Origin: an uncultured Acidimicrobiales bacterium
GTDB taxonomy: Bacteria; Actinomycetota; Acidimicrobiia; Acidimicrobiales; Aldehydirespiratoraceae
DNA: 64,000 nucleotides
Reading direction: 5' to 3'
Assembly: GCA_958296055.1 (NCBI GenBank)
Contig: CATQHS010000001.1
Location: 1,894,277-1,958,276, forward strand
The translations under genes were made by a program, and so were the position numbers. This document shows positions 42,487 through 47,731 of this stretch, in pieces. The notes beneath the pieces are model-generated. The model searched no databases and was not told where the DNA came from. It was given only the letters and a program-made list of their open reading frames with translations. The stretch's first letter is position 1. The number at the start of each line of letters is the position of its first letter.

Positions 42487-42610
42487 CACCGCAGGCTACG
42501 AGCCATAGTTGCGGCTCATGAGCCGTCAGGTTGTCTCATTTGTGAGAACTACACCGCATCCTCGACCTCGGCTCGGCCTTTCCGGTTACGACCGAGGCCA
42601 GCTCCAGCCT

Positions 42611-42662
42611 TTACTCTAAATATTTAACAGTAGTTTAGAGTAGCGATAAAACCCCAGGTCAG
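42611..42662. repeat. left copy of 46-bp direct repeat with AGTAG motifs
   Basis: TAAATATTTAACAGTAG begins a 46-bp segment (42617-42662) that recurs 1560 bp away at 44177-44222 with four mismatches. Within and beside it are the motifs TTAACAGTAG (42624-42633), TTTAGAGTAG (42634-42643) and the inverse TTACTCTAAA (42611-42620). The segment is AT-rich in a GC-rich genome. Confidence 0.8.
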
Positions 42663-42697
42663 ACCATAATTACAAGCATGTAGTTGTGATAGAGTCT

Positions 42698-44122
42698 CTA
42701 ATTGTTGAGTTTCCAGTAAGCGCGCGGATCGTTGGATGACTTACCCACCCGAGAAATAAGGCCCTCCAACTGCAAGACCCGTAGCTGCCGGAGCACAACC
42801 GGGCGCGATCGTCCTGTGGCCTCTGCTAAATCGCCGGTGCTGAGCCTGTCCCCTGAGCGGATCAGTCGCATGAGTTCTCGGGCCGGACGCGGCAACCGGT
42901 CGTTGAGATCCCGATCCACCGACGTCCAAGAGAGCGTGAGCCGGACACTGCCCGATGTCTGGTGGTATTCGGGATCCACAAGGCCGGCGAGTTTCATCTC
43001 GTCGAACATGCGCCGGATGCCTTCTCCGCGCTCCAGTCCGAAGTCGAGTTCCGCACAGGCTCTGGCAATACGGGGATTACGGGCAAAGCGTCTGACCTGA
43101 AGTGGGTCGCTGAGATCGAAGATTCCCGGAAACCGACCTGGGCTCTCGATCTCCAGCCGGTCGTCAAAAATTTCCGCCCGGATGTGGTCGCCGCTGTGGC
43201 TGTAGGACCGATGCACGACCGCGTTGACCAGCCCTTCGAGCCAGGCGTTCAAAGGCAGCGGCGCGATCGGTTCGAAGCGGCCGCGGTCGGTGAGGGCGCG
43301 CCGGGTCGGCAGTTGGTTGAGTACCACTTCGCGGGCTTCGTCGATCATGCGGGGGATGGGCCCTTCGACTCTGACATCGGACAGGAGTTGCTGGCGGGCG
43401 CCGACGCCGCGTTCCGATCCGCGGTAGCGCAGCACCCGCACTAATGCCTGAGGGAGCCATTGCTGGGGCTCAGGGGCCAACAGCAGCACTGCGGCGATGG
43501 TGACTTGGCCGTCGCGATTGAGCAGCCCGCGGGCGCTGAGCAGTCGCTCAGGGTCGGGATGGGAAAGCTGGTCGGCGTAGTCGCTGAGAAGGCCGCGGTC
43601 GAGGTCATCAAGTACTGCCCGGTCGGCCGGGGTGCTCTCGAAGCTCGCTTGCCCCTTGTCGTAGAGCAGTTCCTGTCGCTGCTGGAAGTTCAGCTTGCGG
43701 TTCTGGTCGCCGACGCGCAGGTAGACCTCGTCCCGGTTGGTGGCGTGGACCTTGTCAGGGGTCGACTCGACCCTGATCACGACAAGCCGATCCGGGCCAC
43801 CCTTGGCGGTGATGCAGTCGATGAGCTGGAACTGGCACCGCACGGGCGGGTTGGTGAAATCGACGGCGGCCCGCCGCCAGTCCGTCTGTCGTTTGATTCC
43901 AACTGAACCGATGCCTTCAACTGCGCCGTCGTCGCTGAGCCCGATGATGATCGCACCCCCCTCGGCGTTGGCGAAGCCCACGAGCAAGTCGGCGATGGTT
44001 TGCCCGTTCACGCCGGCGCTCTTGCGCTCGAGCCACTGGTCCTCGGGGAAGGCGGCCAACGCCTCGCCGACCTCGGCCGGGCTGAGTTGCAGTGCTTGCT
44101 CCACAGAGCCGACGGTGGCCAT
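42698..44122 (-). CDS. AlbA_2 (Schlafen-type) / HATPase_c_4 / winged-helix protein
   Basis: A 474-residue protein. Residues about 25-125 match AlbA_2 (QWLERKSAG ... LVGFANAEGGAIIIGLSDDG). A GHKL-like ATPase region lies at about 290-350 (LEGLVNAVVHRSYSHSGDH, DDRLEIESPG). A C-terminal winged helix occupies about 410-470 (STGDLAEATGRSRPVVLRQLRVLQLEGLI). Such proteins are putative ATP-dependent DNA-binding regulators and often occur singly in defence or mobile regions. The gene stands alone between 46-bp direct repeats and has a lower GC content than neighbours. GGAG precedes the ATG. Confidence 0.85.
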   Translation of the reverse strand: MATVGSVEQALQLSPAEVGEALAAFPEDQWLERKSAGVNGQTIADLLVGFANAEGGAIIIGLSDDGAVEGIGSVGIKRQTDWRRAAVDFTNPPVRCQFQLIDCITAKGGPDRLVVIRVESTPDKVHATNRDEVYLRVGDQNRKLNFQQRQELLYDKGQASFESTPADRAVLDDLDRGLLSDYADQLSHPDPERLLSARGLLNRDGQVTIAAVLLLAPEPQQWLPQALVRVLRYRGSERGVGARQQLLSDVRVEGPIPRMIDEAREVVLNQLPTRRALTDRGRFEPIAPLPLNAWLEGLVNAVVHRSYSHSGDHIRAEIFDDRLEIESPGRFPGIFDLSDPLQVRRFARNPRIARACAELDFGLERGEGIRRMFDEMKLAGLVDPEYHQTSGSVRLTLSWTSVDRDLNDRLPRPARELMRLIRSGDRLSTGDLAEATGRSRPVVLRQLRVLQLEGLISRVGKSSNDPRAYWKLNN

Positions 44123-44170
44123 GTCACTACTCCGATCGCCTTGGCCTAGAACACTTGGACAGGCTATCGG

Positions 44171-44268
44171 CTACTGTAAATATTTAACAGTAGCTGGAAG
44201 TAGCGATAAAACCCCAGGTCAGCGGGGTTAGAATATTTAGAGTAGCGTTACAGTAGGGTTTACAGTAG
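44171..44268. repeat. right copy of 46-bp direct repeat plus iterated AGTAG motifs
   Basis: The 46-bp repeat is at 44177-44222. Additional motif copies are the inverse CTACTGTAAA (44171-44180), TTAACAGTAG (44184-44193), TTTAGAGTAG (44236-44245), TTACAGTAG (44248-44256) and TTTACAGTAG (44259-44268). CTACTGT and ACAGTAG form an inverted repeat around AAATATTTA. This cluster is directly upstream of the AlbA_2 gene. Confidence 0.8.
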
Positions 44269-44293
44269 AAACCGGGGCCGCCCGTCGGGCGGA

Positions 44294-46400: not shown

Positions 46401-47588
46401 TCATTGCGGTTGCGGTTCGTCGGGGTCGGGGGTGGCGGCTCGCCAGATTTCGGCGTGGGCGGCCCAAGAGCCGCGTCGGAGCCCGAAGCACGGTCCGGGG
46501 TGCAGGTTCTGCTCGGAGGTCAGCCGGCGGGCGGCTTCGGCGAAGGTCCGGTCGGGGTGCGACGACGCGGCCGCTTCGGCGCCGGCGGTTTCGGTGATGG
46601 CGGCGTAGCGGCTGGTGAGATCGGCCACCCGGGCCCGTATAGCCGCGACGGTCTCGTCGAACCAGGGCCAGAGCTCTTCGGGCAGGTCTTGCCGGTAGCC
46701 GTCGGTGCTGGGTCCTCTGGCCCCGTGGAGGCGGCTGAGTACCTCATCGGGATTCAGCTTCAGCCGGGAGCCGATGGCCCGGTGATCGCCGCTGTGGACG
46801 CTCATGGCCTCTATGGCCACAACCGCCCACACCCGGCGGGCGTTGAGCCCGTACTTCAACCGGTGCAGGTCGACGTAACGGCCGGACTTGACCTTGATCC
46901 GCAGATGAGGCCCGCTAGGGCCGGTGTCGAATCGGGCCACGAACCCTTCCGTGAGTTCGTCGTGGGAGCCTTCTTCGGTATGGGCGATGATCTCGTCGAT
47001 GGACCCGAACCGGCGGTCGGCAGCGGCCGGGCCGGGCCATTCGATGGCGTCGAGGGGCAGGTCCGCTCCGGTGCCGATGTCGATGACGGCGAGCAGCACC
47101 AGGTCGCGGGTGCTCCCGTAATCGATCAGCACCCGGTTCTCGGGGTAGATCACCTCGAACAGCGGGGTGACGTCTGATCCGAACCGGACCGCGGCGTAGC
47201 GTTCGCGCCAGATCTCGGTGGCCTGGCGGGCCTGCGGCGAGTCGAGCCGGCCCCGGGTGGTGATCCTGATCTCGCCGTCGTGTTGGTAGGCGATGCCCAA
47301 AGAGCCGTCGAGCTTCTCGGTGACGTGCATGGCGCAGCCGTCGGGAATAGTCGGGGCGTGGGGCTCTTGCACCCCGAAGAACTTGGGGAACGGGCGGGCG
47401 ACCACCTCGCCCTCGGCGTCCACCACCAGACCCCGGCAAAGGGTGGTGATCTCATCCCAGGTCTCGGAGTAGGTGGCCTTGTTGGTGTAGTTCAGTATCC
47501 GCAGACCGCGGTGGCGTCGGTCGGTGACCAGCCCCTCGTCCACGGCCGACTGGAACCGGTCGAGGTCCACCAGATCGGATAAGCGCAT
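46401..47588 (-). CDS. T4 Rnl1-like RNA ligase
   Basis: A 395-residue ATP-dependent ligase. Adenylation motif I is EKLDGSLG with Lys92. ETWDEITTLCRGLVVD precedes it. Motif III is FEVIYPENRVL, motif IV EGFVARF and motif V LRIKVKSGRYVDLH. The C-terminal about 150 residues are helical, as in Rnl1. Rnl1 seals broken tRNA anticodon loops in T4-infected E. coli; bacterial homologues may repair tRNA cut by toxins. No end-healing kinase-phosphatase is next to it. The perfect -10 TATAGT ends 7 bases before the ATG at 47588, so upstream GTGs are not used. Confidence 0.88.
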   Translation of the reverse strand: MRLSDLVDLDRFQSAVDEGLVTDRRHRGLRILNYTNKATYSETWDEITTLCRGLVVDAEGEVVARPFPKFFGVQEPHAPTIPDGCAMHVTEKLDGSLGIAYQHDGEIRITTRGRLDSPQARQATEIWRERYAAVRFGSDVTPLFEVIYPENRVLIDYGSTRDLVLLAVIDIGTGADLPLDAIEWPGPAAADRRFGSIDEIIAHTEEGSHDELTEGFVARFDTGPSGPHLRIKVKSGRYVDLHRLKYGLNARRVWAVVAIEAMSVHSGDHRAIGSRLKLNPDEVLSRLHGARGPSTDGYRQDLPEELWPWFDETVAAIRARVADLTSRYAAITETAGAEAAASSHPDRTFAEAARRLTSEQNLHPGPCFGLRRGSWAAHAEIWRAATPDPDEPQPQ

Positions 47589-47595
47589 ACGCCGC

Positions 47596-47601
47596 ACTAT
47601 A
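47596..47601 (-). promoter_or_regulatory. -10 element TATAGT of the RNA-ligase gene
   Basis: TATAGT matches TANNNT and lies 7 bases before ATG 47588. It would also overlap the two possible GTG starts at 47606 and 47597, which excludes them if the transcript is leaderless. It is the best -10 match in the window. Confidence 0.55.
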
Positions 47602-47731
47602 GCCACGGGGGCTGACAGTCAACGAGGGTGCTCACCGCTCGGCTCGACAGGGTTGCCGAGCACGGACGGTACGGGCCGACAGGTCGAGGGCAGGCCGCTC
47701 AAATCGTCCGCCGGCACTGGCCGCTCCCGCT

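Follow-up and report, generated by a model that had tools for sequence, protein, structure and literature searches.

Solitary Schlafen-type genes of actinobacteria, phages and streptococci lie beside putative binding sites for their own winged helix

We describe a solitary gene in a 64-kb stretch of DNA (the window; 64,000 nucleotides) from an uncultured Acidimicrobiales bacterium. The gene, a single open reading frame (ORF) of 474 amino acids on the minus strand (positions 42698-44122), lies between two copies of a direct repeat, and comparison with its relatives makes it reasonably probable that the block is a mobile single-gene unit composed of a Schlafen-type (AlbA_2) effector, a minimal HATPase and a winged helix-turn-helix (wHTH). 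The wHTH would read 10-bp AGTAG half-sites that travel along with the gene and would bring about autorepression through a dyad at the expected -10 position. A first-pass annotation had suggested that the block could be either a mobile cassette with att-like ends or a regulator with an iterated autoregulatory operator. The comparison argues strongly for an operator, as a dyad precedes the gene in nearly all close relatives, tracks it across the genomes of the class and has its counterpart, in more distant relatives, in repeats that covary with the recognition helix of the wHTH. The sequences themselves show the domains, the dyads and arrays, the covariation, the phage carriage and the sites that are empty or hold relics, and from these we infer binding of the protein to DNA, repression, and a release on phage infection that leads to RNA cutting.

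A dyad at the promoter of the gene and its close relatives

Relatives of the window protein were sought in 395 genomes of the class, representing 184 genera, at an E value of 1e-60 or better (45-63% identity), and were found in 12 of the genera. A single-protein query of the genome contigs returned one locus and a single-sequence viral search returned none; an alignment query returned eleven. The one feature common to the flanks of these relatives, here called subfamily A, is a dyad of the form CTACTSTAA-N5-TTASAGTAG, which consists of two 10-bp half-sites around 3 bp (10+3+10). With 0-4 mismatches it lies within 110 nt upstream of the start codon in 17 of 18 actinobacterial and actinophage loci, and its quality was never equalled in 200 shuffles of each locus flank. 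The gap between dyad and start is 4-5 nt in eight loci, 10-11 nt in five and 48 nt in the window, where the dyad CTACTGTTAAATATTTACAGTAG (44171-44193, minus strand) has one mismatch to the consensus CTACTSTAAN5TTASAGTAG. The right arm of the dyad, TASAGT (TACAGT in the window), would fit the -10 box of a leaderless or short-leader transcript. A dyad over the -10 region is most simply explained by repression, and the proteins of subfamily A may thus repress their own genes.

The dyad follows the gene across the class, at the gene start in differing chromosomal contexts. Dyads with at most one mismatch occur in eight of the 395 genomes, seven of which carry the gene (hypergeometric P = 5e-11). 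In the eighth (G228) a perfect dyad stands in a flank like that of the congener G337 and the gene is absent; this reads as an operator relic. Half-sites were also found 3' of the gene, within 160 nt, at 7 of the 18 subfamily-A loci versus 4 of 479 control windows, and these extra copies would supply more binding sites. When viral contigs were scanned for the dyad, five matches were obtained, one of them in phage Squirty (see below); the other four, with no such gene in the examined span, look incidental.

Iteron arrays at the 3' end of more distant relatives

A sister group of relatives, subfamily B, shares 33-37% identity with the window protein and has tandem repeats at the gene end; in its members from Streptococcus, Fusobacterium and another actinobacterial class we found no clear promoter dyad. 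The Streptococcus dysgalactiae gene carries 20 perfect copies of the 10-mer TAGGATACAG at its 3' end and that of Streptococcus respiraculi 15.6 copies of TTTATTGTAG, while in the class of G562, presumably Coriobacteriia, the gene is present in 32 of 396 genomes. An array with a unit of 9-12 bp lies between -40 and +220 of the stop codon in 29 of 37 loci, versus 14 of 672 control windows (Fisher P = 9e-34). The unit mostly contains AGTA(A/G); some lineages have another sequence (CTCTGTCGGAC, CCTTGTCGTA, TCGCACCTCTG) with the period unchanged, and the iteron is CTTCGGAGTAA in G871 and CTCTGTCGGAC in G1014. The arrays are often split into two clusters with some 100 bp between them (60-120 bp), and at several loci the stop codon falls inside the first repeat. 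In subfamily B, sites like those of subfamily A would be strung together where the gene ends, as iterons with a period of 10/11 bp that all face the same side of the helix. Two further observations concern these sequences. A strong inverted repeat stands ahead of the first array cluster at L351, L353, L355 and similar loci, and the 10-mer of the S. dysgalactiae array, GATACAGTAG, recurs as iterons at streptococcal prophage ends beside an endolysin gene (L380, 3788-3814; L382, 359-385).

Among 26 subfamily-B genes, dissimilarity of the iterons was correlated with dissimilarity of the recognition helix after the rest of the protein had been removed (partial Mantel r = 0.48, 0 of 2000 permutations), and similarly after the rest of the wHTH had been removed (r = 0.46). 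The recognition helix was the top-scoring of all 15-column windows along the protein (0.51). Arrays of TGTCG type go with SQR- or NRR-type helices and GGTCCGAGTA arrays with SAKFAR-type helices. Because iteron sequence covaries with the recognition helix, it is probably the protein's own wHTH that reads the repeats.

Domains and fold of the protein

The first-pass description of a solitary AlbA_2/HATPase/HTH gene was confirmed. The protein has a Schlafen AlbA_2 domain (residues 27-145; Pfam SLFN_AlbA_2, E = 3e-17), a HATPase_c_4 domain (311-397; E = 1.7e-20) and a wHTH (about 403-474; HTH_24, E = 1.4e-5), in an order on which Pfam, PHROG 12156 and a structural model agree. PHROG 12156 ("DNA helicase") matches the window protein over its full length (E = 4.7e-118) and also includes the relatives from phage Squirty and Streptococcus. 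For the AlphaFold model (mean pLDDT 86), the closest solved structure is PDB 3lmm (DIP2311 of Corynebacterium diphtheriae), with 359 residues aligned, Z 24 and 22% identity; the large rmsd of 14.7 points to a different domain placement. Model residues 1-130 match the N-domains of the Schlafens SLFN11, 13 and 14 (Z about 11) and residues 403-474 match MarR/ArsR winged helices (Z about 10-11). E27 is invariant, and E/D32 follows at the same 5-residue spacing as E205/E210, which are among the catalytic acids of SLFN13 (PMC5862951). The third Schlafen acid had no clear placement or conservation in this subfamily from sequence alone.

Mobility and phage carriage

The window gene occupies an interval (42490-44293) between an xdh-like and an erpA-like gene. 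In four relatives (L046, L047, L050, L071) these two genes adjoin, with about 100 bp between them and the gene absent, so that empty sites, whose lack the first-pass annotation had named as evidence against its reading, do exist. Similarly, at the locus of G001 the congeners G029 and G023 are empty, and in G010 the last ~90 bases of the gene and the 3' half-sites remain behind an unrelated insert. This insert (L175) is about 1 kb long and has two short ORFs in place of most of the AlbA_2 gene. The gene tree is discordant with the host families: G001 falls among members of a different family (support 0.99), and the two named phages cluster with G343 (support 1.0). Taken together, the comparisons support a gene that is mobile as a single-gene unit. 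Because G035 carries a different insertion at the same intergenic site (L044), with a small ORF reading like the start of an antitoxin, the erpA-like/xdh-like interval may be an insertion hotspot.

Temperate phages carry the gene as well. Mycobacterium phage Squirty (gp31) and Gordonia phages (Nymphadora, BatStarr, Bosnia and others) encode relatives at 47-48% identity. Squirty gp31 has a perfect dyad, CTACTGTAAAAGGTTTACAGTAG, 4 nt ahead of its start, and the dyad of Nymphadora gp38 has two mismatches. Both genes sit in the integrase/immunity-repressor region, in the same direction as the repressor, and on a phage-like plasmid of S. respiraculi a LexA-type repressor is followed after about 13 nt by the gene and then by an integrase. 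The integrase/repressor region is the usual place of genes expressed in the lysogen.

Repeats, half-sites and neighbours in the window

The direct repeat, first noted as a 46-bp pair 1560 bp apart, has the same offset and is slightly longer: its copies at 42612-42662 (3' side of the gene) and 44172-44222 (5' side, containing the promoter dyad) span 51 bp and are identical at 46 of 51 positions. A search of the whole 3.3-Mb genome found these two copies flanking the gene and no others. At L003 a 176-bp repeat includes the last codons of the gene, so that the repeat copy upstream is what a further copy of the gene has at its 3' end. On this basis, repeats of this kind look like the 3' ends of tandem or relic copies, and we read the 51-bp repeat, by analogy, as the 3' end of an earlier gene copy, either in tandem or a resident relic, that now lies beside the operator.

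The TTTASAGTAG-like motifs, of which at least eight in both orientations had been reported, number eight at no more than one mismatch within 42611-44268 (42611-, 42624+, 42634+, 44171-, 44184+, 44236+, 44247+ and 44259+), with two more in the rest of the window. Allowing up to two mismatches gives 17 matches in the window, a count that was not attained in any of 100 shuffles (mean 8.0). Besides the promoter dyad, these sites make up a second dyad 3' of the gene (CTACTGTTAAATATTTAGAGTAA, 42611-42633, minus strand, two mismatches to the consensus), a single exact half-site next to it (TTTAGAGTAG, 42634-42643, plus strand) and, upstream of the gene, three half-sites in direct orientation (44236, 44247 and 44259; 44236-44268, plus strand) spaced 11-12 bp apart, a TRF array.

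Each repeat copy also contains a 15-mer, CTGACCTGGGGTTTT, on the minus strand (42648-42662 and 44208-44222). This sequence (CTGACCTGSGGTTTT) has 31 sites in 61 genomes versus 0 for a reversed control, nine of them directly 3' of tRNA genes; outside the window it was seen at loci L073-L076 and L097-L123 and at the viral loci L225-L304. It is a separate dispersed motif that viral contigs commonly contain, in many cases immediately ahead of promoter-like sequence. A role as an integrase arm site was considered and not established: only 2 of 83 viral sites had an integrase-like ORF, as detected with a home-made profile, at a distance of 600 bp or less, with 0.6 expected. Nor did inspection by eye find a consistent upstream arm with which the 15-mer would form a terminator hairpin. 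At L109, L119, L122 and L123 (G017, G033) the 15-mer is central in a dispersed unit of ~100 bp whose inverted ends are of the kind CCTAGGTGGCTGGT / ACCAGCCACCTAGG and which resembles a small repeat element.

The flanking genes are ordinary, encoding Fer2_2 (xdh-like), Fe-S biosynthesis (erpA-like) and Mrp/NUBPL ATPase proteins; other neighbouring genes encode an isochorismatase, an AMP-binding enzyme and a T4-type RNA ligase. The last of these (RNA_lig_T4_1, E = 6.7e-12) is encoded at 46404-47606 on the minus strand, with ~2.3 kb between it and the Schlafen gene; in phage T4, ligases of the T4 RNA ligase 1 type mend cut tRNA.

Discussion

In the mechanism that we favour, the protein would be held at half-sites carried with its own gene, and phage infection would release it, whereupon the Schlafen domain would cut tRNA or other RNA and the infection would be stopped. 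Several points weigh against this proposal. One of the 18 loci examined for the promoter dyad, L198, is without a convincing one, and the covariation test handles relatedness by distances only. Because spacing locates only two of the three catalytic acids of Schlafens, RNase activity of the subfamily is doubtful. Moreover, since the arrays of subfamily B are 3' and no clear promoter dyad accompanies them, the sites must do more than serve autorepression; their role on the 3' side could be one of stabilising, of buffering or of keeping the protein inactive.

This last role leads to a bolder proposal, which we regard as rather unlikely: by binding the wHTH the DNA sites would themselves keep the Schlafen effector inactive, as an antitoxin made of DNA, and their loss or competition for them during infection would free the effector, giving a self-contained one-gene defence unit. 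If true, the unit would resemble a toxin-antitoxin system that has no gene for the antitoxin, and it would spread both with phages and as a mobile gene of the chromosome. Type III toxin-antitoxin systems use a transcribed repeat RNA with units of about 30-40 nt upstream of the toxin gene. A system of that type was rejected here, as the repeat units measure 10-11 bp and are found on the 3' side or as a palindrome at the promoter. That the 3' arrays nevertheless work as RNA, either as a bound or stabilising 3' untranslated region or as an RNA antitoxin of the Schlafen domain, is very unlikely. They start at or near the stop codon and are possibly transcribed, and eukaryotic Schlafen domains act on RNA (PMC5862951), but a period of 10-11 bp is one turn of the DNA helix, the half-site of subfamily A forms a palindrome upstream of the gene, and the covariation is with the wHTH, not with the Schlafen domain.

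Two other explanations would detach the sites from the protein. A site-specific form of the cassette suggested in the first-pass annotation is unlikely; here the 51-bp repeats would be attL and attR, made in trans by a recombinase that binds at the AGTAG motifs. The mobility that it implies is supported by empty sites, relics, the discordant tree and phage carriage; in addition, the 15-mer of the repeat occurs directly behind tRNA genes, with a close variant in the integrase-side region of Squirty, and the phage genes lie near an integrase. The comparison did not, however, demonstrate att-like ends: the block contains no recombinase and only two tyrosine recombinases were found in the whole genome, the relatives share no target site and their contexts vary between genomes, and the L003 repeat contains codons of the gene. 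Recombination would also leave unexplained the fixed 4-5 nt between dyad and start in eight loci, and the iterons covary with the wHTH. It seems quite unlikely, too, that the dyad and arrays are bound by another host or phage protein and that the gene is a mere neighbour. Tyrosine integrases have arm-type sites of about 10 bp, and the GATACAGTAG iterons at streptococcal prophage ends occur with this gene absent from the examined span; against this, the dyad tracks the gene in the 395 genomes and stands at its start in different chromosomal contexts, and the covariation peak is the protein's own recognition helix.

Bacterial Schlafens have been recognised only recently as anti-phage effectors, and cognate DNA sites would give a handle on how the solitary ones are controlled. 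We found no published description of AlbA_2 paired with iterons, and the COG2865 literature gave no lead by title and abstract. The protein architecture is known; what appears to be new, as far as we found no published description, is the surrounding DNA, with putatively cognate iterons and a mobile single-gene lifestyle. Such sites beside the gene in actinobacteria, phages, streptococci and fusobacteria mean that the DNA adjacent to each gene reveals where its protein is likely to bind, and they provide a simple genomic mark for finding new members.

With respect to known systems, DIP2311 is an uncharacterised protein whose match stops at model residue 401, with the wHTH of the window protein outside it, and the likeness to eukaryotic Schlafen N-domains and to MarR/ArsR winged helices is one of single domains, which does not give the function of the window protein. 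Phage members of PHROG 12156 (Squirty gp31, Nymphadora gp38) have the same promoter dyad as the window gene; their copies lie in the integrase/repressor region, whereas that of the window is a chromosomal gene and has none of phage type nearby. Proteins that join a Schlafen RNase, a minimal histidine kinase and a wHTH are described as BREX-linked and anti-phage in the parts of PMC12839542 available to us, which cite a 2025 preprint about bacterial Schlafens in anti-phage defence and in which we found no mention of cognate iterons or a dyad. The BREX-linked proteins share the three-domain order AlbA_2/Schlafen, HATPase, wHTH with the window protein. The window gene, a relative of the antiviral Schlafens, probably acts against phages; unlike the BREX-linked Schlafens, as described there, it stands alone amid housekeeping genes.
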